Positions 1,486-26,170 of a stretch of 27,469 nt of DNA are shown in pieces. A program made the translations under genes and the position numbers. Source of the stretch: a virus. The stretch is from positions 1-27,469 of the IMG/VR virus record IMGVR_UViG_3300017763_000137. One strand, given 5' to 3'. How positions within the stretch are numbered: position 1 is the first letter of the stretch; the number at the start of each line of letters is the position of its first letter. A model generated the notes under the pieces. The model did no database searches and was not told where the DNA came from. It saw only the letters and a program-made list of their open reading frames with translations.

Positions 1486-1591
1486 GTGAACAGCACATTC
1501 TCTATAGTACTATACGTCAGTGTGCTGCTCACACTTTATTAGGCGTTGCCCCTTGCCTTTGGGAAGAAAAACACGTTTATCTCGACACAGA
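1486..1591 (+). promoter_or_regulatory. Bipartite dyad element, copy 1 (upstream of the replication block)
   Basis: The copy starts with a 12-nt arm GTGAACAGCACA (1486-1497), a 23-nt centre, and the near-complementary arm TGTGCTGCTCAC (1521-1532; 11 of 12 pairs). The centre holds a perfect 12-bp palindrome, TATAGTACTATA (1503-1514), almost concentric with the arms. After 46 nt comes ATCTCGACACAGA (1579-1591). The same layout recurs inverted at 19450-19555. It lies in the 254-bp divergent gap between the terminase genes and the RHH gene. An operator, a promoter or an origin-type site are all compatible. I found no convincing -35 box next to the TATAGT sequence. The rest of the gap (1412-1485 and 1592-1665) shows only the ribosome-binding sites of the two flanking genes. 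Confidence 0.75.
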
Positions 1592-1665: not shown

Positions 1666-2160
1666 ATGGCTCAGAAGAAGAACATCTCGATCCGGTTCAG
1701 CGCCAGAGCGTTGGAGATCGCACAGGAGCACGCAGACGCTTCAGGCTTGACACGGAGCGCCTACATCAATGAACTGGTGCTCCAGTCAAGCGGCCCTGTG
1801 TTGTCCCGTGAGGATAGGCTGGGTCTGCTGACAGACCTGCTGGCGGAAGGCCGCAAGCTTGAGCACCAAGGGGTGCCTGCCAGTGCTTGCGATATGAGAG
1901 TCACCGACCGCTACTCGCAGCGGTTTGACCCCCACTTGGCTCACCTGATGAGCGAGTTGAACGACGTGCACCGGATCGCAAAGACGTTTGCCCAGCTTCA
2001 CTACGGCTACGACGTGAGCGCAGACGTGGTGACCTCCTACTTCACCCTGCTTTGTGGTCGGCTTGAAAAGCAGCGGGCACCGTCCCTCTACCTCAAGGGG
2101 CACGTGTCGAACCGCGACCTTGGGCTTCCTCTGACGACACCAGACGCAGACCTCGGTTAG
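1666..2160 (+). CDS. Ribbon-helix-helix DNA-binding protein
   Basis: The first 40 residues read as an RHH (Arc/CopG/MobC-like) fold: a short basic strand (KKNISIRFS), helix A (ARALEIAQEHADASG), then the turn and helix B (LTRSAYINELVLQ). The remaining 120 residues are mostly helical and unrecognised, and could serve oligomerisation or partner binding. I chose the ATG at 1666, giving 164 aa, because AAGGAG sits five bases upstream and the RHH strand begins directly after it; the frame is open further upstream, but that stretch covers part of element copy 1. It is the first gene of the plus-strand block, just ahead of the replication helicase, so a transcriptional or copy-number regulator acting on the adjacent dyad is likely. 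This role is inference. Confidence 0.8.
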   Translation: MAQKKNISIRFSARALEIAQEHADASGLTRSAYINELVLQSSGPVLSREDRLGLLTDLLAEGRKLEHQGVPASACDMRVTDRYSQRFDPHLAHLMSELNDVHRIAKTFAQLHYGYDVSADVVTSYFTLLCGRLEKQRAPSLYLKGHVSNRDLGLPLTTPDADLG

Positions 2161-2183
2161 AGTCTGAACGCCACAACAAAGGC

Positions 2184-2214
2184 GACCCCCGCCAGCCGAA
2201 CAACTGCGGGGGTC
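2184..2214 (+). promoter_or_regulatory. Intercistronic stem-loop before the primase-helicase ribosome-binding site
   Basis: There is a perfect 9-bp GC-rich stem, GACCCCCGC (2184-2192) with GCGGGGGTC (2206-2214), around a 13-nt loop. It has no T-run after it. Instead, AAAGGA (2215-2220), the Shine-Dalgarno of the next gene, follows immediately. It is more likely a translation- or mRNA-stability element, or a partial attenuator, than a full terminator. Confidence 0.6.
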
Positions 2215-2229
2215 AAAGGAACCTTCAAT

Positions 2230-5202
2230 ATGCACTACGAATCTATCGCACAACAACTGCTTCCGCCAGTACCAAACGGCCACAAACTGGGGGTCAGGTC
2301 ACTGCCCGGACACCGGAGGGTGCAGCACTTTGTGGCCGGTGGTTTCTTCAAGGCTGACGCGCCGAAGCAGGACTTCAAGAACCTCGCCAAGACTGCTCTG
2401 CTGTCTCTGGATATCGACGGCTGTGACTGCCCTGCTGTTCAGGTTGCCCTCGGCTTTGAAGACGTGAGCACAGACGAAGACCGCAAGGCCGTCAAGCAGG
2501 CCCTCTACGCGATGGAGGAGGAGGAGGTCCATGAGTGCTTCGACAACGTGGGCTTCGTCCAGTGGGCGCTCAAGCTGTGTGTCGAAGACGGTCTGCCGGA
2601 TAACCCGAATCGCGTGTTGTTCTCCGGTCACGGCTACCAGCTTATCTGGTGGCTCACGGACAACATGGGGTGGTCAGACTCGGACTGGAACCAAAAGCGG
2701 CTCAAGAACGTCCTGAGCAACTATATCAAGGTGGCCCAGCCTGTTCATGTTGACGCTGGGGCGAAGGATATTGGCACCCGGATCATGCCCATCCCGGGCT
2801 TCAGCCACCGCAACGCCGACAAAATGGTCTGTATTGTTGGCGACCGCCACGACGAACCGCACGACCTGTCCGACTGGTTTGCTGCATTGGAAGCCAAATA
2901 CCCTTCCGCACGTAAGGCGGGCAAGCGTCGTCGGCAGGCACCTCGACAGAAGGGTCAGCCCTCTACCGGCCAGTGGAGCAGCACCCTGTGGCTCAAGGGT
3001 CAGCACCCAGAGCTTCCAGAGGGTGACCGAGACACCTGTCCGCTGTGCGGTGGGTCTGGCTACAAGCGTATGGACGAACGGACCTACGCCTGCTTTTCCT
3101 GCAACACGCACTTCAAGGTGCCGGTGCTTCCCTCGCCACCCCCTGCTGTGGTCAACGGTGTCCGAAAGATAGACCTCGACGCGAACGGGCGTATGATTCT
3201 TCCACCAGAGCGCCCCAACTACGTGGTGCTCAAGACAGCAACAGCCTCGGGCAAGACCCACTTCATGGCAGAGATAGCGAGGAAGCACGACAAAGGCTGG
3301 GCGCCTCACAAGAAAGTGCTGGCGATCTCACCGTTCAAGTCACTGGCACAGCAGCAGGCGGGTCGCTTCAACATTCAGTGGGCCTCCTCAGGCTCGGACA
3401 ACAGCCTTCGGCAGTCTTCCTGTGCAATGACAATGGCCGCGCTGGAGAGCAAAGCCAACGTCTATAAGACCGACCAGTGCGAGCACCTGTGCGTCATGTT
3501 TGATGAGTCAGAGACAGTCTTGTCGCAGCTTGGCTCTATGTTGACCAACGGCAAAGACCGTGACGCCTACAACTCCGCGCTGCGGATCTGCCTCCGAGCA
3601 GCGCGGGTGGTTCTCGCAGACCAGAACGCCGGTCCAGCGACCGCGCAGTTTATCGCTCACCTGAACGCCGCCAGAGCGAGCAACGGCCTGCCCGCCCGTG
3701 ACTTTGAGTGGTGGGTCAGTGACCACTACCGGCACACCTTCCTTGAGATTCAGCCTGTGCTGCGGACGAACCGCCGTGGTGAGGAGGTAGTCCAGCAGAG
3801 CAGCACCTCGGTCCACGAAGACCTGATCATGAGCCAGATTGATGCAGAACTGAAGGTCGCAGTCTATCGCTGGGGGCACAGCAAGTGTATCGCCCAAGCC
3901 GCTGTGATCCGGGCGGCCCACCCTGCCTTGGACGTTCGTGTGGTGGTGGGCACCAAAAGCAAGGACAGCGAGAACGACCTGTCACAGGCTGCGCTCACGG
4001 CCGACGTGCTGATCTACAACAACGCGATGAGCACCGGTGTTTCGATCGACGCCCTTGACCACTACGACCACGTGCACGTGCTGTGTGAGAACCACAACTC
4101 GCTGTCCGGTGACCACGTTGAGCAGGCGTGCCACCGTGTTCGCAACCCGAAAAGCCGTGAGATCTTCATCAGCGGTGCAGACCGAGCTATTGTCAATGAC
4201 TGGCGCTGTGACCCCCAGCAGGTGCTTGACAGGAAGCTGGCCGAGCTTGACCGCGAAGACGCCACTTGCCAGCGAATCATGAGGGACAAGACCTTCACGC
4301 TGCGGGGTGACTACCACGTGAGTGCCGACGCCCAGCGGTTGACGTGGCTTCAGGCTGTGGTGGTGGCCTCGGAGCACCGGCGCGGGAAGGGCTGGCCGCT
4401 GGAATACCTCCGCAGCAGGCACACCTTCAAGACGTTCACCGCTGCCACCCACGCTGATGATATCGCCGGTGCAGTCAAGGCTGCTGTAGAGCAGGTCAAG
4501 CTCGCGGACGCACAGGCTGTGGCACTGTCCACGCCGTTGAGCGACACCGCCCTCGACCGGGTGACCAAAAGCGGGGCAGACACGGATCAGGAAGCAGACG
4601 AAGCACAGGCCGCCCGTATGTGTAAGCGGTACGGTGACGCCTACGCTGCGGTCAACGGCGAAGAAAAGACCCGGTTGGTGCTTGAGCACAAGAAAGGTCT
4701 GTACAAGCAGGTGGCGGTCTTCGCCCAGTACCGCTGCTGGGGTGACTTGGCCCACGCTCACGCCAGCCTGCGCAACCTCAAGAAGTCTATGAAGCACCGC
4801 ACGGCGATGACTTCCGAGATCCCCGTCAACAAGGCCGTGCTGTTCTACGCGCTTATGCTTGAACTGGAGGCTCTCAGGGTGTCTGGGGCAACCGAGATCC
4901 AGATCAGCAGGGCGCAGGCCCTTGTCGTCTGCACGGCGCTCCAGAGACGGGCCAGAACCGCCGGACTTCCCATGCGCCGTGGGTGGCAGGCCAACCCCGT
5001 CCAGCAGTTGGGTGCTTGGCTCAAGCTGGCCGGTCTGTCTTGGGATGCTCGGCAGGTAGGCCCGAGAGGGGCACGGACACGGGAATACTGGCTGACAGAC
5101 GCTTGCGTTACACGTATGGAACGCCTTAGTGAAAAAAGATTCAACGACGTAAACACCGTGACAGTCGACAAGTACGCAGCAGGTGAGGCCGAGTGGCGGT
5201 AG
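2230..5202 (+). CDS. Primase / zinc-ribbon / SF2 helicase fusion (replication initiator-type)
   Basis: This 990-residue protein has three recognisable parts. Residues 1-220 look like an archaeo-eukaryotic-type primase: SLDIDGCDC with D61 and D63, FSGHGYQLIWWL (131-142) in place of the family's SxH loop, and VDAGAKDIGTRIMPIPG (174-190). A zinc ribbon follows with C270, C273, C288 and C291. Residues 330-650 are an SF2 helicase: Walker A TATASGKT (336-343), motif II FDESE (424-428), motif V-like NNAMSTGVSID (597-607) and motif VI QACHRVRNP (632-640). The helicase motifs resemble the herpes UL9/origin-binding group and cyanobacterial plasmid CyRepA-type proteins. The last 300 residues are helical and unassigned. 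AAAGGA nine bases upstream supports the start. It probably opens and primes the phage origin. No polymerase gene was seen beside it. Confidence 0.82.
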   Translation: MHYESIAQQLLPPVPNGHKLGVRSLPGHRRVQHFVAGGFFKADAPKQDFKNLAKTALLSLDIDGCDCPAVQVALGFEDVSTDEDRKAVKQALYAMEEEEVHECFDNVGFVQWALKLCVEDGLPDNPNRVLFSGHGYQLIWWLTDNMGWSDSDWNQKRLKNVLSNYIKVAQPVHVDAGAKDIGTRIMPIPGFSHRNADKMVCIVGDRHDEPHDLSDWFAALEAKYPSARKAGKRRRQAPRQKGQPSTGQWSSTLWLKGQHPELPEGDRDTCPLCGGSGYKRMDERTYACFSCNTHFKVPVLPSPPPAVVNGVRKIDLDANGRMILPPERPNYVVLKTATASGKTHFMAEIARKHDKGWAPHKKVLAISPFKSLAQQQAGRFNIQWASSGSDNSLRQSSCAMTMAALESKANVYKTDQCEHLCVMFDESETVLSQLGSMLTNGKDRDAYNSALRICLRAARVVLADQNAGPATAQFIAHLNAARASNGLPARDFEWWVSDHYRHTFLEIQPVLRTNRRGEEVVQQSSTSVHEDLIMSQIDAELKVAVYRWGHSKCIAQAAVIRAAHPALDVRVVVGTKSKDSENDLSQAALTADVLIYNNAMSTGVSIDALDHYDHVHVLCENHNSLSGDHVEQACHRVRNPKSREIFISGADRAIVNDWRCDPQQVLDRKLAELDREDATCQRIMRDKTFTLRGDYHVSADAQRLTWLQAVVVASEHRRGKGWPLEYLRSRHTFKTFTAATHADDIAGAVKAAVEQVKLADAQAVALSTPLSDTALDRVTKSGADTDQEADEAQAARMCKRYGDAYAAVNGEEKTRLVLEHKKGLYKQVAVFAQYRCWGDLAHAHASLRNLKKSMKHRTAMTSEIPVNKAVLFYALMLELEALRVSGATEIQISRAQALVVCTALQRRARTAGLPMRRGWQANPVQQLGAWLKLAGLSWDARQVGPRGARTREYWLTDACVTRMERLSEKRFNDVNTVTVDKYAAGEAEWR

Positions 5203-5210
5203 AAAAGTAC

Positions 5211-5239
5211 TTGACCGGATTACACTACTGGCCTACATA
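5211..5239 (+). promoter_or_regulatory. Candidate sigma70-type promoter
   Basis: TTGACC (5211-5216, five of six consensus bases) is separated by 17 nt from TACATA (5234-5239, three of six). It lies in the 87-bp gap after the helicase gene and would drive the two small genes at 5290-6050. A GC-rich imperfect hairpin (about 5246-5272) follows and would fall in the leader. The -10 match is weak. Confidence 0.4.
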
Positions 5240-5289
5240 TAAAGGGCGGGAGGGAACAAACCCCTCCGCACAAACAAAGAGCCGAACAA

Positions 5290-5781
5290 ATGTCCAACAG
5301 CTACTTCCACAACGGCGTTCTCAAGCACGCAGGCCACCGCGAGCAGATCACCGACCACCTCATGAACAGCTACCCCCGGTGGGTTTCGACCTCCGAACTG
5401 ACCGACCTCACGAAGTCCATGAACACGCAGGCCCGTCTTCATCAGGTCCGCGAGATGTACGCGAGCCAGTTGAAGTGCCAGCACCGTCTGATGGAGGCTT
5501 ACTACCGCCTCTGCCCCACCAGCGTCAAGAAGGGCTTCAACAAGGACCGGAAGCGTATGATGGTGCCCTGCCTCGGTCTGAACGCCGCCGACAAGGATCT
5601 CATCAAAGACTTCGCGAAGCTGATCATGGACTGCCGCGAGCAGGGCTTCAACAAGGATGAGATGCTGATGGTGCTCGACGCTGCCCGCTCTGGTGTTCAG
5701 CAGGTCGTTGACCTCAACGCAGTGCCGGACGACGGCGCAGACTGGTTCGCTACCCTTTCCTCTGAACTGGAGCAGTGCTGA
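5290..5781 (+). CDS. Probable winged-helix protein, function unknown
   Basis: The gene encodes 163 residues. Positions about 19-60 look like a winged-helix domain: a helix (REQITDHLMNSYP), then RWVSTSELTDLTK, then NTQARLHQVREMYA as recognition helix and wing. This follows the pattern of small phage wHTH proteins in which a WVST-type segment precedes an ARLHxxR helix. The C-terminal half is acidic and helical. The Shine-Dalgarno is weak (AAGAG before 5290). It ends in a one-base TGATG overlap with the next gene, so the two are translationally coupled. The location after the primase-helicase suggests a replication accessory or regulatory role; this is inference. Confidence 0.6.
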   Translation: MSNSYFHNGVLKHAGHREQITDHLMNSYPRWVSTSELTDLTKSMNTQARLHQVREMYASQLKCQHRLMEAYYRLCPTSVKKGFNKDRKRMMVPCLGLNAADKDLIKDFAKLIMDCREQGFNKDEMLMVLDAARSGVQQVVDLNAVPDDGADWFATLSSELEQC

Positions 5782-6050
5782 TGACCGTGACTACCGCGAT
5801 ATACGGCATTGTACTTGCTGTATGCTGTATTATGCCCTCAGTTATCCTCATGGTCTTTGACCGCCCTGACACCAAGACGATGCGCGAAGCCCGGGTGCTC
5901 ATCACGGTGCTCCAGAAGTACGCGGAGGACAATGAGTCTATGAAAGCCCACCTTGAAGCCCGTGTTGCAGACCTTGACCGGCAGGTGGTCGAACTGTCAA
6001 ACACCGCTCGGCGCCTTCGCGAAGCAGCCTTTGCTGCCAAGTTCGACTGA
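5781..6050 (+). CDS. Small membrane-anchored coiled-coil protein
   Basis: The gene encodes 89 residues. I took the ATG at 5781, which overlaps the previous stop in TGATG and has GGAG eight bases upstream; a GTG two codons earlier is less likely. A hydrophobic segment (IYGIVLAVCCIMPSVILMVF, about residues 6-25) is followed by a long heptad-like helix that includes ESMKAHLEARVADLDRQVVE. One transmembrane segment plus a coiled coil fits an inner-membrane spanin-like subunit or a membrane tether for replication. The first is unusual here because the lysis genes are on the other strand. It is the last plus-strand gene before the convergent terminator. Function is unassigned. Confidence 0.65.
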   Translation: MTVTTAIYGIVLAVCCIMPSVILMVFDRPDTKTMREARVLITVLQKYAEDNESMKAHLEARVADLDRQVVELSNTARRLREAAFAAKFD

Positions 6051-8744: not shown

Positions 8745-9182
8745 TCACTCCATCCACGTGAGGATCGTGGAAGCGAAGTTGGGGGTGCCTGCGTTGACCT
8801 TGGCGAAGACGTAAAAGTTGGCGTCACCCTTCGCGACAGGCTGCTCAACCGGCAGGTCGATCTTGAAGGTGGCGGTGCCCACCGACGCCGTGGTCAGGCC
8901 GAAGACCAGATCCGCCTGTGTGTCAGGAATGATAACGATGTCACCGGCGGCGTCCGCACAGATACGGATTGTCACGTTCGCGCTGCCTGCTGCGTTGGTC
9001 AACTGGACCACAAGCCCGCCGAGAATCCCGTACCACTTGGAAGCAGCAGCCAAGATCCGTGGCTGTGCCGCTGTGAGGTCGTGAACATGCACGTCGGCAG
9101 TGGCAAAGGCTGTGCCCAGCACTGGGGGTGACCCCGGTACAACCTCGCTCCGGTGTATGAAGTGATTGATTCGTGTAGCCAA
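8745..9182 (-). CDS. Beta-rich virion-type protein (145 aa)
   Basis: The start is a TTG with AAGGAAGG seven bases upstream. The 145 residues begin with MATRINHFIHRSEVV and consist of alternating hydrophobic strands (SKWYGILGGLVVQLTN, NVTIRICADAAGDIVI, ANFYVFAKVN), compatible with a beta-sandwich. Size and position between the largest ejection protein and the 261-aa surface-like protein suggest a structural accessory such as a fibre or decoration subunit. I do not recognise a family. Confidence 0.6.
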   Translation of the reverse strand: MATRINHFIHRSEVVPGSPPVLGTAFATADVHVHDLTAAQPRILAAASKWYGILGGLVVQLTNAAGSANVTIRICADAAGDIVIIPDTQADLVFGLTTASVGTATFKIDLPVEQPVAKGDANFYVFAKVNAGTPNFASTILTWME

Positions 9183-12100: not shown

Positions 12101-14050
12101 CCGGGCAACCACTCGGCCCACAAAAGCAGCTTTGCTGGACTGGTCGCGGGCTATCTGGCTGCGGACGAAGGCGTTCGCCCCCTCCTTCAGCCGGTTGGCG
12201 ATGGACCGGGGCGCGGCGATATCCTCGGTTATCATCACGAAGTCGTCCGGCACACCGAGCTTTAGGCCACGCTGAATGTTTTCCAGTTGCTCGGCAGACA
12301 CGCCCGAGATCCGCACACCGGGCTGGCCTTCGGCGGCAGGTCTGCTCAAGCCCTTTACCACGTCCTCAAAGGCGTCACCCCAGTTGCTCACCGTGGGCCT
12401 CAAGGCGGCGACGGCCTTGGCCGCAAGTTCAGGCTCTACCCCAGCAGCTTTGAGCACACGCTCGGTGACCTTCCTTATGATCAGCGGGTCGGTCTTGCCC
12501 TGCGAGGCACGGTACACTGCTCGGGTGTAGTCGCCTGTGACCTCTGCTGCCTGCACAGCAGCCGCCCGAGCACGCTGGAAGGGTGCAGACACCTTGGCGG
12601 CGTCAAGGAGGGTGTCAGACACCCCAACCTCCCGCATAGTGGTGCGTGCTGCGGCCTCGCCTACTGCTTTCACGTCCTGAACCAAAGACCTGACAGCTTT
12701 CGGGGCGGCGGCTGCTGCTGCCCCCGCTGTGCCTGTGACCACCGGCTTGACGCCACGGTAGACAAAGCCCGGTCCAATAGGAAGTGAAGCCTCACCGGCC
12801 AGACCAACGTAGTAGGCTGCGTCAGGGTCGCCCCACACAGCGTCGTAGTAGCCGGACAGCAGGGGTAGATCCCGGTATTCGTCGCCTATAGTGCGGCCTG
12901 CGGAGATATTGCGTGCCAGACGGACTGTTTCAGCCTGCGCGAAGCCCGCCGGGTCTTCCAAGAACGACGGCACCTCAACGTCCGAAGCTGTGCGTCTGCC
13001 CTCGGGGTCAACGTCGTAGGCGGTGCGGGGCTGTGCCACACGGGCCTGACCGGGCAGTGGGATCGCCAGACCTTGCAGGTACGGGTGGGTGAAGGCCGAA
13101 GGCACACGAAGGGCTGACCGCAAAGACGCCAGCTTGTAGCCGGGGTCAGTCGTGTCCACGTCGGGGGCGTTGAGCAGCACCTGCTCGGCCTGACGGTTCT
13201 TGTCCATGTACGTGCGGAGGCTGGCGAGGTAGCCTTCGTCGCTTTCCGTCAACGCCTTGAACGCTTCCGAGCGAAGCTGTTCGGCCTGCTCTGCTGCCTC
13301 GGCGGGCACTTCGTAGGTGAGTGGGCCTCTGATGATCTCACCCAGCGCGTTGCCGAACAGACCAAGGGTGCTGCGTGCTGCTGCTGTGACCGGTCCCTCA
13401 AACACACCGAAGCCCGGTTCGACTGTCTGTAGCGCGCCGAAGCCTTCCTCCGGTGCCCTTCCCGCGAGCGCAGCCTGCTGTGCCTGCTGCTCCGTCATGA
13501 TCTGCTGCTGGGCAAAAGCCTCAGTAAACTCCTCGCCCGGGGTCGGTGCACGCAGGCGGTCTGGGTCGTCTCGCTCCTTGGTGGGGTCGGCGTAGAGCCG
13601 GGTGCCGTCCGTCTGAACCGAGATCCGTGACGGGCGGAAAAAGGGCACAATCCCGCCTGTCTGGGGTGACACAAGCCCCGGGCCACCAGCCTGAAAGACC
13701 TGTCCGTAAGACCGCTCGACCGTGGGTCGGATCGCAACCTCAAGACGTTCCCGTTCAGCAGCACGGGCTTCTTCGCTCTGATCAGCACCGGGGCTGACCC
13801 GCTCCAACTCGGCGTCCACCCTGCGCTGGACTTCCTGCTCAATCCGGTCACGGACAACAGGTCGCTGCTCCTCAAACGGGGGCACCGGATCCGGTCGGGC
13901 GACAACAGGAAGCTCAGGCTGCTCAGACGCAACCGGTTGCGCGGGTGCCTCTGGCGCCGGGAACAGCGTCCGCAGTGCCGTCTGAATCTCTTCGTCCGTC
14001 ATGGAGTCAGGGAATCTGATAGTCTGGTCGCCAACTCGGATATCAGGCAT
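9200..14050 (-). CDS. Giant internal virion/ejection protein (1616 aa, T7 gp16-like position)
   Basis: At 1616 residues this is the largest gene in the window. It opens with MPDIRVGDQTIRFPDSMTDE, a start motif often seen on large phage internal virion proteins, then a Pro/Glu-rich linker. Long Ala-rich helical stretches follow, with scattered hydrophobic patches such as GILAGLPFVYTVVDAAIGPV near residue 1440. Order and size (205, 803, then 1616 aa) parallel T7 gp14, gp15 and gp16, which form the trans-envelope DNA ejection channel. No lytic transglycosylase motif was seen, unlike T7 gp16. The start has GGAG seven bases upstream, and the gene begins at the base after the preceding stop codon. 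Confidence 0.75.
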   Translation of the reverse strand: MPDIRVGDQTIRFPDSMTDEEIQTALRTLFPAPEAPAQPVASEQPELPVVARPDPVPPFEEQRPVVRDRIEQEVQRRVDAELERVSPGADQSEEARAAERERLEVAIRPTVERSYGQVFQAGGPGLVSPQTGGIVPFFRPSRISVQTDGTRLYADPTKERDDPDRLRAPTPGEEFTEAFAQQQIMTEQQAQQAALAGRAPEEGFGALQTVEPGFGVFEGPVTAAARSTLGLFGNALGEIIRGPLTYEVPAEAAEQAEQLRSEAFKALTESDEGYLASLRTYMDKNRQAEQVLLNAPDVDTTDPGYKLASLRSALRVPSAFTHPYLQGLAIPLPGQARVAQPRTAYDVDPEGRRTASDVEVPSFLEDPAGFAQAETVRLARNISAGRTIGDEYRDLPLLSGYYDAVWGDPDAAYYVGLAGEASLPIGPGFVYRGVKPVVTGTAGAAAAAAPKAVRSLVQDVKAVGEAAARTTMREVGVSDTLLDAAKVSAPFQRARAAAVQAAEVTGDYTRAVYRASQGKTDPLIIRKVTERVLKAAGVEPELAAKAVAALRPTVSNWGDAFEDVVKGLSRPAAEGQPGVRISGVSAEQLENIQRGLKLGVPDDFVMITEDIAAPRSIANRLKEGANAFVRSQIARDQSSKAAFVGRVVARYTEQLSPALRSALAQQAARLEALTDAREIARLDKQIVLALQQVAKTVPDAKKADVVGNFRTKPMNEIKQTLPEVLRSEIPVNVRVFADLEPSTKKRLVEALKETWVVKNAGGLARNTMDVGAMQIYLDRSIKGISSLLDFKLLNTPFTRNMLALFGGKLDDTTKFSVDMANAIRRAGRGRTRKLVGMLEEQIRDVNTVLKAALKERGTFSPKGQALKARLDAGESAAVAVEMLAARAGRVSGIAPRQMWEQVFSTMFNPKLNRRVLADVLDDAGFADKLDLYPTVASINAIARAAQELPAIRWAGRTVPFSDDALKHLLAAMLEGPVRDAAARGIITRELSRKMNLTPYIQKMMSDNSADLTTLIFDPAVQAKVAEESRQLGLIFPVERPLGTTRLLSGVDTEFEKVIADGGGEFLEVLNYVAPQHRPGLLELFTQAASYLAQQGQMGIRQAAKYGYAIPNIPFLAYKGLEAPFVAASQVGIATAAKGLANVASDTVRYAKNALGRRNTTGGGLTTVDGVYYTPSDLAKLAEQEGLGYTAVESERVSLALTDMLSDLKRRLGTRGDKLLDTLNPVTKTFWIRTAEAMERSFRTGVFEARLAMGDTVRAAGEAARKSLFDYDEVPELLRAGVLPQIFQGAAGSYKITSEMALLALKNPRAMGKYMRALDINRKNQDPLGLEGDAALLNLRIPGTNLYQPVPGSAVIGRTVIAARHADNLVAGMRAARKAVAAKDPYTAMSEVGILAGLPFVYTVVDAAIGPVLDSFEAFEGADPYPTAGQARDVSDEKIFWAAALYAVNQDPTGLDGAYEDFRRFYDVKTVQPPPERAHPQMPKYWAERPEGMPYVFRGRTAPTERNPAGLPIYEGIEMGPVGKRNLGIVRAIDPADLRRFFPTVVATYTGDTAYGNQAGIGGIKRVNAERFVDETGQQEALNLFFNPTGIDYSRPEEARATQARELLRARTPLTPE

Positions 14051-16462
14051 CTACGGCTCCAGTCGTCCGGTCGCGACGTTGTAGGTTCTTACCGGCTGCT
14101 GCGGCGGCTGCTGCTGGCGCGGGGGAAGCGGCTGACCCCCAGACAAGACTCTCTGGATACTGTCGAACGCACGTGACCCGGGGAGCGCGTCGTCAAGCCG
14201 GTTGCCGTCTTCGTAGATCTCAAACCCACCCTCGGCGGGTAGCGCCCTGTACTGGTAGCGGTCGTTGGACGGGTCAGTCACAAGCGGTGGGGCTTCGGGC
14301 GCCTGCACCTTGGCCGCAACCACCTGTGGCTTCCTCGCGGCCAGTTCAGCAGCAGCAAAGGGTGAGCGGTCTGCCAGCCCCTTGAGGGTTTCGTCGTCCA
14401 GCCCCTCAAACACCGCACGCTGTGCCGCCGTCAACTGTGGCCCACGGCTCTGGTTCGCCGGGATACCCGGTGACGGTGACTGCCCTGTCTGGGCTGCTCG
14501 CTGAAGGTAGTCCGGTGACCGTTCGTTGCGCTCAAGGATAGCCTCGGTGGGATCCACAGCAGGCATGTTCTGGGTCTGTGAGCCGGGTGCTGTGACTTCC
14601 TGTGCGACCACAGGGGGCAGTGGTGCTTCGATCTCGGAAGGGGCGCTGACGCCTACCTCCATGCCCTCTACCAGACGACGCCGCTGCTCCTCGGTGCGCA
14701 TCGTTGCAGCCCGAAGGGTAGGTGCGTCGATGAAGACCTTCAGGTACGGGTTGCGTGAGTAGCCCTGAATCTCAAGGGGTGAGGCGTTGCGCACCCGGTC
14801 GCGCATTTGTGGACCGTAGGCGGAAGCCAGCACCGGGATATCAGCCTCGCGGAAGCCAAGGTTCGACAGCAACTCGGCGCGGGTGTCTTCCTCCAGTGAG
14901 GGGTTGACCAGTACCTCAAAGCCTTGATTCATCGCCCGGTTGATAGCTTCCCGCTCCATACCGCTCACGCGCAGACGGGTGTAAAGGTCGCGTGCTGCCT
15001 TCGGTGCCTGTGCCAGTTGCTCACGGGCGCCAGACACGGCCGCAACCTGTTCGTCTTCCATACGCTGGGTCAGTTCTTCCGCCTCCTCCAGCTTCCGCTG
15101 GGCCTCACGGGCAGACACCTGCAACTGCTCACGCTGTTCGGTCGCCGCCCTGATCTGGGCCATCTCACGCTCGGCGTCGTCCGGTGTTTCTACGTTCTGG
15201 TTCAGCCCCCGGTTGTAGGCGTGGGCGAAGGCCAGTGCGTCGTCCAGTTCTTGACCGGAAAGTACCTTTTTCAACTGCCTGCGGGCCTCGCCCATGCTCA
15301 AAGTGCGGTCACCGTTGGCGAACCGCTGTGCCACGTAGTCTCTGGCAAGGGTCTGGGCCTCATTGTCGGGCGTCAACATCACCACGTAGCCCTGCGGGAC
15401 CACAAAACGCTCTGGGTCTTCCTCAAACAGCCTGCGGGAAGCCTCAAGACCCGACTCATAGAGCCTGTCACCTTCGACAAGGTGCTTGTAGTACCACTCC
15501 TGCTGCTGGGCGATGTAAGGGGCGTCAAAATCATAGCCCCGTGCCGTCCAGTACCGCTTCATGACCTCATCTTGCCGTGTCACACCCGCCGGACGGGCGA
15601 TTTCTTCGGCCTGACTGCGCAAAACAGAGATTCTGGCTTTTGAGTCAAGAAAAGACTGCTCAAAGAACCGGCGCTGGTCGTTGCGGTAGGCTCCGGTGGC
15701 CTTGGCTCGGTCGTAGATCCGTGCAGCGTCCGCCAGACGTGCGGCGTCACCCCCGAAGTCTTCCAGTGTGGCCGCGCCGTCGTTGTCCACGGCGCTCATG
15801 TATTCTTCAAGGAGGGCGTCACCCTCGGCACCACGCCGGTCGATCTCTGCCTGACCGCGATCCTGACCGAACACACCTGCTCGGCCAGCCTGCCCCAGTG
15901 CCGTGATAGCCTGCTGAAGCGCCCGCTCTTCTTTTTGCAGGGTGCTCATTGCCTCGCCGCCGCCTACCTCGGCGGGGTCACCCGACGCTACCTGCGAAAC
16001 CTGTGTGCGGATCGCAGCCGCACCGGAGGCGTCCGAGGCGTCGATCAGCCCCAAGACCGTCTCTTTCTGACTCGGGTTGAGCGAAGGAACAAGCCCTTTA
16101 AGCTCATCTATCGCTACGCTCACAGGCTTGGCAAGGGCTTCCGCCACAGTTCTTTTCTGCGCGTCAGTCAACTGCCCGCCAGCCAGAGCAGCGGCACGCC
16201 CCTGTTCGGTGGACAGGTCTGCCTGTCGTGCACGGTTGCGGTTGAAGTCAACCAGCAGGGTCTTGAGTGTCGCGGTGTCCTGCGGGGCGACAGCAAGCTG
16301 CTGCTCAAGCAGACGAAGGTTCTGCTGCTCCTGTGCGATCAGCCCGTCGATGTACCGGCGCTCGTCCTCTATCCCGGTGATATCCCGCGAGATCTGGCTG
16401 TACATCGCAGGGTAAGCCAGACTGGCCATGTAGGTGTTGAGGTAGTCGTTCAAGCGTGGCAC
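14051..16462 (-). CDS. Internal virion/ejection protein (803 aa, T7 gp15-like position)
   Basis: I chose the GTG at 16462 (VPRLNDYLNTYMASLAY), 803 aa, because AGGGGG lies eight bases upstream and the upstream stop codon is only one base away. An ATG 32 codons earlier would overlap the previous gene by 95 bases with a Pro/Ser/Lys-rich lead. The sequence is almost entirely helical, with coiled-coil segments such as QREQLQVSAREAQRKLEEAE and a Pro/Gln-rich C-terminal tail (GGQPLPPRQQQPPQQPV). It resembles the middle ejection protein of T7-like phages in length and order. No enzyme motif was seen. Confidence 0.75.
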   Translation of the reverse strand: MPRLNDYLNTYMASLAYPAMYSQISRDITGIEDERRYIDGLIAQEQQNLRLLEQQLAVAPQDTATLKTLLVDFNRNRARQADLSTEQGRAAALAGGQLTDAQKRTVAEALAKPVSVAIDELKGLVPSLNPSQKETVLGLIDASDASGAAAIRTQVSQVASGDPAEVGGGEAMSTLQKEERALQQAITALGQAGRAGVFGQDRGQAEIDRRGAEGDALLEEYMSAVDNDGAATLEDFGGDAARLADAARIYDRAKATGAYRNDQRRFFEQSFLDSKARISVLRSQAEEIARPAGVTRQDEVMKRYWTARGYDFDAPYIAQQQEWYYKHLVEGDRLYESGLEASRRLFEEDPERFVVPQGYVVMLTPDNEAQTLARDYVAQRFANGDRTLSMGEARRQLKKVLSGQELDDALAFAHAYNRGLNQNVETPDDAEREMAQIRAATEQREQLQVSAREAQRKLEEAEELTQRMEDEQVAAVSGAREQLAQAPKAARDLYTRLRVSGMEREAINRAMNQGFEVLVNPSLEEDTRAELLSNLGFREADIPVLASAYGPQMRDRVRNASPLEIQGYSRNPYLKVFIDAPTLRAATMRTEEQRRRLVEGMEVGVSAPSEIEAPLPPVVAQEVTAPGSQTQNMPAVDPTEAILERNERSPDYLQRAAQTGQSPSPGIPANQSRGPQLTAAQRAVFEGLDDETLKGLADRSPFAAAELAARKPQVVAAKVQAPEAPPLVTDPSNDRYQYRALPAEGGFEIYEDGNRLDDALPGSRAFDSIQRVLSGGQPLPPRQQQPPQQPVRTYNVATGRLEP

Positions 16463-19440: not shown

Positions 19441-19449
19441 GACCGCTCC

Positions 19450-19555
19450 TCTGTGTCGAGATTTTGCTCATTTTCTCCCCAGAAGTCGGGTATCTCGTGC
19501 CTTTTCGTGTGAGCAGCACAATGACGTTTAGTACTATAGAGAATGTGCTGCTCAC
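19450..19555 (-). promoter_or_regulatory. Bipartite dyad element, copy 2 (upstream of the fibre/ejection block)
   Basis: Read on the minus strand, this is GTGAGCAGCACA, a 23-nt centre, and TGTGCTGCTCAC (perfect 12-bp arms, 19555-19544 and 19520-19509). Then come 46 nt and ATCTCGACACAGA (19462-19450). The 47-bp dyad differs from copy 1 at three positions only. The central palindrome is reduced to TAGTACTA. Within the 46-nt gap, a patch CxTxTGGGxAGAAAA is also shared. The element begins at the base after the tail-nozzle stop codon and ends at the ribosome-binding site of the TTG-started gene. Confidence 0.78.
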
Positions 19556-24729: not shown

Positions 24730-24736
24730 AGTGCCC

Positions 24737-24792
24737 TCCGGTACGGAGTTTTGTTAGATTGGAACGTGTTTCTGGGCGTGTTCCGTACCGGA
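24737..24792 (-). promoter_or_regulatory. Leader stem that contains the capsid Shine-Dalgarno
   Basis: On the minus strand, TCCGGTACGGA (24792-24782) pairs perfectly with TCCGTACCGGA (24747-24737); one more C-G pair (24793 with 24736) makes 12 bp around a 34-nt loop. The GGAG of the Shine-Dalgarno GGAGGG, a few bases before the GTG, lies in the 3' arm. A closed stem would hide the ribosome-binding site. Confidence 0.7.
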
Positions 24793-24804
24793 GTGCCATC
24801 GCGT

Positions 24805-25699: not shown

Positions 25700-26170
25700 T
25701 TATACGCGAGCGATGAACCGGCCCCGCCGGAAGCGACGGTAGCCGGGGGCAATAGGAAACTGACGCAGGTTGCCCGCGAACTGCGCCTGTACCACAATCT
25801 GCGGGTTGCGGATCCGGTTCAAGATAAAGGTCCGCCAGCCCGGTAGCCTACGGCTGCGGCTGGAAGACGCCGGTGAAGTGTACATGAGCAGGTAGGTCAC
25901 CCCGCCGCGATTTATCAGGGCGTGGGGGTTGCCCGTCCGGCGCCCGTCGAGCTTCGCGGTCTTGTTGCTGTACCAGAAAGCAACTTCCTGTCGAAACTCT
26001 ATCGCGTCTTTCAGAATCCCTGTCCGGCCTGTCCAGCGGAAAGGTGACTCATTGCCTGCTACCTCAACGGCACCTGTTCTACTGCGGGTGGCAGACGCAC
26101 GTAGGGAAGCCCCCTTGTACTTCGACAGGAGGCCACGCGCTGCGTAGGCCGCTCGCAGTGGAACACTCAT
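25700..26170 (-). CDS. Basic hypothetical protein (156 aa), head-region
   Basis: The gene encodes 156 strongly basic residues with Arg-rich ends (PGYRRFRRGRFIARV at the C-terminus) and a central part with WYSNKTAKLDGRRTGNPHAL and GGVTYLLMYTSP. No known domain is recognised. The ATG overlaps the preceding stop as ATGA, so it is coupled to the acidic 162-aa gene. A DNA- or capsid-binding role in head assembly is possible from charge and place only. Confidence 0.6.
   Translation of the reverse strand: MSVPLRAAYAARGLLSKYKGASLRASATRSRTGAVEVAGNESPFRWTGRTGILKDAIEFRQEVAFWYSNKTAKLDGRRTGNPHALINRGGVTYLLMYTSPASSSRSRRLPGWRTFILNRIRNPQIVVQAQFAGNLRQFPIAPGYRRFRRGRFIARV

Follow-up and report, generated by a model that had tools for sequence, protein, structure and literature searches.

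Two copies of a palindromic DNA element in an uncultivated phage genome are, on balance, probably an initiator-binding replication origin and a second, relocatable copy of it. We analysed the whole of IMG/VR virus contig IMGVR_UViG_3300017763_000137 (27,469 bases; hereafter, the window). Its left end cuts the large terminase gene and its right end cuts the portal gene. Both genes are complete in a relative with 61% terminase identity (L004), showing that ~1.3 kb is missing, and the window is thus nearly the whole ~29-kb genome of a short-tailed-like phage. The minus strand carries the late genes, with terS and terL first and the portal-to-lysis series after them; the plus strand carries a short early block (1666-6050). 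Searches of the window for tRNA genes and for Rfam families were both negative. A genome-collection search gave one match, a phage segment (L178) in a candidate division WOR-3 MAG (CP070680.1) with at most 84% identity to the window capsid region. This segment sits in a bacterial MAG chromosome, which may be a host link or an assembly chimera.

The window carries two inverted copies of a two-part element

The initial annotation had described an inverted repeated dyad, a 46-nt gap, an identical 13-mer and a conserved patch in the spacer, and we confirmed each of these features. A near-palindrome of 49 bp at 1486-1534 (plus strand) recurs 18 kb away, inverted, at 19555-19507 (minus strand) with 46/49 positions identical; the three mismatches are the same as in the earlier count of 44/47. 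In both copies 46 nt separate the dyad end (1532 / 19509) from the start of the 13-mer (1579 / 19462). In the stretch from the 49-nt block to the 13-mer, 18/44 nt are identical, mostly in one patch, TGGGRAGAAAA, and outside the element the flanks are at background (14/60 and 15/60 identical). The parts of the two copies are as follows.

1486..1532, plus strand: early dyad, arms and 23-nt centre, between a divergent terS-like gene and the RHH/replication genes
1486-1497, plus strand: early left arm, GTGAACAGCACA
1498-1520, plus strand: early centre, 15/23 A/T
1521-1532, plus strand: early right arm, TGTGCTGCTCAC
1560..1570, plus strand: early spacer patch, conserved, TGGGAAGAAAA
1579..1591, plus strand: early accessory 13-mer, ATCTCGACACAGA, 46 nt after the dyad
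19509..19555, minus strand: late dyad, perfect 12-bp arms GTGAGCAGCACA / TGTGCTGCTCAC and 23-nt centre, 16/23 A/T
19471..19481, minus strand: late conserved patch, TGGGGAGAAAA
19450..19462, minus strand: late accessory 13-mer, ATCTCGACACAGA, directly before the next gene's start region

A chance origin of this pair is excluded. The dyads form the longest inverted repeat in the window, the next ones being 71-77% complementary, and self-BLAST returned the pair with E = 1.7e-14 and no further self-match. None of 100 shuffles produced a match to the 20-nt core. The window holds two AT-rich dyads of this class versus none in 6 block shuffles, and one turned up in 42 shuffles of seven genomes.

Could the element act in transcription, as the simplest reading of the initial annotation had it? 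A shared promoter or an mRNA leader, possibly with a hairpin that is processed, e.g. by RNase III, would suit the window itself: both copies point with transcription toward their downstream genes, the late 13-mer ends beside the Shine-Dalgarno sequence of the next gene, and the RNA hairpin of the element is more stable than shuffles (z about -3). However, scans for promoters and terminators found nothing at either copy, with 0 sigma-70-like sites (-35/-10 hexamers) in both regions, and the absence of an Rfam match speaks against a known leader. Moreover, a pure RNA hairpin would not need its arms to match between the two copies of a genome.

Another dyad, CTCCGGTACGGA...TCCGTACCGGAG (~57 nt, 24733-24796, minus strand), lies directly upstream of the major capsid gene. 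The closest relatives (L005-L010, L178) have kept it and others show partial conservation, so it is probably a capsid-gene leader or other protein-binding site.

The late copy is an insertion in a virion operon

Each copy had been placed before a gene block on its own strand. This holds for the early copy, on the plus strand; the late copy, on the minus strand, lies inside a single minus-strand virion operon, between two adjacent genes (a tail gene at 21772-19556 and a gene at 19440-18766). We compared this junction across 53 tail-gene loci with a readable junction, some of which share a contig. In the relatives the two genes overlap by 4 nt (usually ATGA) or abut directly, with no gap. Only in the window is the junction lengthened, by ~115 bases, and these bases are the element. 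The loci that lack them include L085, whose tail protein is 81% identical.

19441..19555, minus strand: lineage-specific insertion of ~115 bp holding the late copy

Relatives carry their own pairs of dyads

The window helicase as a single query found no relatives, and an alignment recovered some. The pattern sought by the initial annotation in related phages was found in part. Its exact sequence was not: the 20-nt core of the window dyad had no match in IMG/VR, the whole 106-nt element had none among phage records, and the window dyad sequence did not occur in the relatives. The class of dyad was found. By self-comparison of each genome (through the helicase search for L191), we identified genome-specific dyads of 45-53 bp, with arms of about 12 bp or more and an AT-rich centre (58-90% A/T in the relatives, 65-70% over 23 nt in the window). 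The arms agree within a genome and differ between genomes; the centres diverge even within a genome. The five types below have both an early and a late copy.

G010: dyads at 9038 and 25126, arms GTGGACAGGTGA
G003: dyads at 14490 and 20566, arms TACACCTCGGGT
G014/G013: dyads at 15411 and 26706, arms CGTTACGAGAAT
G020: dyads at about 12119-12161 and 17199
L191: dyads at 4779 and 9505, arms GTGGACAGGTG

Further fragments (L089, L011/L088/G018, L103, L104, L031 and L047) add a late dyad only. The third part of the pattern, a 13-mer at fixed spacing from the dyad, was confined to the window genome; G020, G003, G014 and L191 carry other flanking motifs, and elsewhere there are other motifs or none. 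The fixed spacing, the diverged filler and the presence of the same class in relatives argue, in line with the initial annotation, for a constrained and probably functional two-part site rather than plain descent.

TATAGA occurs in 9/16 dyad centres versus 0.55 expected from shuffles. A T7-like promoter was considered for this motif and rejected: neither its distance to the arms nor its direction relative to the genes is constant, and the scanned proteins include no recognisable RNA polymerase.

Most early copies precede the helicase match by 327-418 nt, in the interval that separates terS/terL from the replication gene, and most are followed by a small RHH-like ORF. In two genomes the early dyad is inside the replication ORF itself. 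It covers codons 468-485 of a continuous 733-aa ORF in G014, which has a Pfam Prim-Pol domain above cut-off, and codons 429-444 of an open 668-aa ORF in G003. These two placements rest on open frames, and two genes read through are possible in principle. Used as queries, the replication proteins of G014 and G003 matched only the phages they came from, so the in-gene position was seen in no further phage.

Late copies, by contrast with a single fixed site, occupy six different gene junctions that vary by lineage.

Junction tail / g224: the window
Junction g309 / g247: G010, L103, L104, L031
Junction g459 / tail: G018, L011, L088
Junction g162 / g156: G020, G003, L191, L047
Junction g232 / g835: G014
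Junction g247 / g232: L089

Such scatter would follow if the phages need the site somewhere, with no single position prescribed. A late dyad directly precedes a WYL-domain head-cluster gene in several relatives; the window's own WYL-domain gene is at 25700-26170 (minus strand; Pfam 33.4 bits vs a cut-off of 21.8).

Orientation, judged by the asymmetric centre or the accessory flank, was mixed with respect to transcription. Both window copies run with it, those of G010 and G014 are opposite to each other, and in G020 the accessory flank is on the upstream side. Such mixing is unlike a promoter, a leader or a terminator; a symmetric DNA-binding site may behave so. The distance from dyad to next start codon, about 22-26 nt in L011/L088 and L103/L104 (about 22 nt in L011 and L088), also leaves a promoter or leader little room, and the early copies of G003 and G014 fall inside a coding region. 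With nothing promoter-like at the window copies either, we regard the transcriptional reading as improbable.

The shifting position of the late copy, together with its insertion relative to the relatives, is also what a small mobile palindromic element (MITE- or REP-like) hopping between intergenic sites would produce. However, no transposase was recognised and no target duplication was seen by eye at the insertion edges. Seven of the examined genomes have only 1-3 dyads of this class each, their arms are genome-specific rather than family-wide, and the early location is consistent. We consider a mobile element very improbable. A packaging site is unlikely too: with a pac/cos site at each dyad the genome would be split, and the early copy of G003/G014 lies at a distance from terS.

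A simple pair is not detectable in every relative. In G002, L184 and L187-L190 types, CTATATATAG boxes or larger, weaker palindromes replace the simple dyad. Several CTATATATAG boxes with nested palindromes lie upstream of the RHH-like ORF in L184, L186-L190, L192, L193, L196 and G002 (L139); the early region of L190 has a larger nested palindrome, e.g. GGCATTGAACCATGCTAA...TTAGCATGGTTCAATGCC. Inverted pairs of ACCCTGCACT boxes cluster near terS/terL in G004, G005, G007 and G008 (L148, L150/L151, L152, L154), and the late operon of these genomes shows no clear second cluster.

The adjacent replication protein has a UL9-like predicted fold

Two genes that follow the early copy encode possible binders of the dyad.

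1666..2160, plus strand: RHH-like protein, NikA-like (25.7 bits vs a Pfam cut-off of 27), rival binder of the dyad
2230..5202, plus strand: 990-aa replication protein with primase-like N-terminus, zinc ribbon, UL9-like SF2 helicase and C-terminal winged-helix-like domain
4825..5097, plus strand: the C-terminal winged-helix-like part, candidate binder of the arms, with weak fold matches

The 990-aa protein has a PHROG replication match. Its primase-like N-terminus was read from conserved acidic motifs in the alignment, and its zinc ribbon has four cysteines. An AlphaFold model (pLDDT 82) gave as its best PDB match 9hgi, HSV-1 UL9 on OriS (E 5.9e-15); after all four top PDB places the next other fold was Mfd (2.0e-8). 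In a BFVD search, many of the named top matches were replication origin-binding proteins of herpes and giant viruses. We had noted the OriS likeness of the DNA site before the PDB structure search was made. In the model ~110 C-terminal residues fold as a winged-helix-like domain, whose database matches are weak (best E 0.08). The 990-aa protein is a candidate initiator. Because its helicase has only sub-threshold Pfam DEAD/ResIII matches and no match to Pfam Herpes_ori_bp, we do not assign the protein to the UL9 family. The similarity is one of predicted fold, and sequence similarity to any solved helicase is weak.

The RHH-like gene raises the other reading of note, and here the initial suggestion of a common operator or promoter divides: the promoter part is not supported, and the operator part is a live rival. 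The RHH protein would bind the dyads and autoregulate the RHH-replication operon in a CopG-like manner, and the late copy would bring the tail and ejection genes under its control. RHH operators are often inverted repeats. Directly after its early copy the window has the RHH-like gene, and small RHH-looking ORFs, recognised by motif, are at the same place in G001, G010, G020 and G002. In G012 (L162), analogous palindromic TTTACAnTGTAAA boxes are scattered over eight places (881, 3447, 8131, 8182, 8230, 8281, 13904 and 13933), with clusters upstream of terL and at the g162 / g156 junction, and look like a regulon or iteron set. However, no RHH gene was recognised in G003/G014, where the early dyad is inside the replication ORF. 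Among the relatives' small ORFs there was no significant RHH match, and a near-cut-off HicB match turned up in L148 alone. Late copies at so many junctions would also mean a different regulatory outcome in each lineage, and the scans showed nothing promoter-like at either window copy. We therefore judge operators to be a serious though unlikely explanation.

NrdR-like or related zinc-ribbon small proteins are encoded near terS in some relatives (L142:6250-6507, L143:12249-12512, L146:18567-19055, L162:8292-8555). Such a protein was rejected as the common binder, being absent from the window record and from G001.

Discussion

We favour the origin reading because inverted genome-specific boxes, an openable centre and one copy beside or in the initiator gene fit the pattern of OriS and pRN1. 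Each dyad would be an origin-type site, in which two inverted, phage-specific 12-bp initiator boxes surround an AT-rich centre that can open. In this scheme the 990-aa protein would act like the herpesvirus origin-binding protein at OriS, binding to the arms, opening the centre and then priming DNA synthesis. Positions 1486-1591 would hold the origin that lies beside its own initiator gene, and the window's 13-mer at +46, with the purine patch, may be a one-sided accessory site. The copy inserted in the virion operon, at 19450-19555, would be another origin or else a replication site resembling one, perhaps a helper like P4 crr. Two other measures gave no signal for this reading. GC skew has no clear switch at the dyads, its profile following gene composition, and, apart from close pairs, phages with similar replication proteins did not have more similar arms (Spearman 0.02, 28 pairs).

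At HSV OriS, UL9 binds two inverted boxes around an AT-rich spacer (PMC12543377). Like OriS/OriL, the window has inverted boxes of about 10-12 bp with an AT-rich spacer, more than one origin-type site per genome, and an SF2 helicase encoded by the same virus, the last by fold only; UL9, an SF2 helicase initiator, is the best PDB match of the window protein. The systems differ in that the window's host is presumably bacterial, the arms vary between phages, the phage protein is apparently a single chain with primase-like and winged-helix-like parts, and the third box of HSV is not seen in the phage dyads.

In pRN1, a repressor and primase-helicase operon is accompanied by a stem-loop origin that is conserved in structure, not sequence, and still works when displaced; its authors saw similar stem-loops in phages (PMC4234260). 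A pRN1-type origin has also been proposed for Bordetella phage BIP-1. The window shares with pRN1, whose repressor is CopG-type, a small repressor-like gene followed by a primase-helicase gene, and arms that differ between genomes at the same location beside the replication gene while the structure is kept. By contrast, the single stem-loop of pRN1 is ~100 nt long and follows its gene, and the pRN1 helicase belongs to SF3, whereas here there are two copies, with the early dyad upstream or inside, and a UL9-like SF2 helicase.

Phage P4 has two separated cis sites, ori and crr. The window resembles it in having two separated sites and one multifunctional replication protein, which in P4 is the alpha primase-helicase-origin-binding protein (PMC4234260). 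P4 ori, however, consists of iterons rather than an AT-centred palindrome, and P4 has a bacterial Toprim-type primase. Helicases of phages that resemble UL9 are already published: the available text of that work describes phage and plasmid proteins in which an AEP primase is joined to a UL9-like SF2 helicase (families All3500 and PrimQH), with primase, zinc-binding domain and helicase as in the window, and proposes winged-helix domains for origin recognition (PMC5862659). That text deals with proteins and gives no origin sequence; the present analysis locates candidate sites to go with them.

A wider proposal is plausible but somewhat doubtful: that a family of ~30-kb tailed phages uses herpesvirus-like palindromic origins with a UL9-like initiator, lineage-specific boxes and an obligatory, relocating second origin. 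Were the dyads operators instead, they would form an unusual regulon joining replication with an internal point of the virion operon. The replication origins of environmental phages are mostly unknown. If the dyads are origins, their shape would identify them: an AT-rich centre between inverted boxes particular to each genome, with one dyad close to the initiator gene and another in the late operon. Origins could then be predicted for a whole uncultivated family. A further question would be why these phages retain a second origin-like site that moves from place to place. If the reading is true, phage initiators would be linked to the herpesvirus origin-binding protein by both the DNA site and the protein fold.
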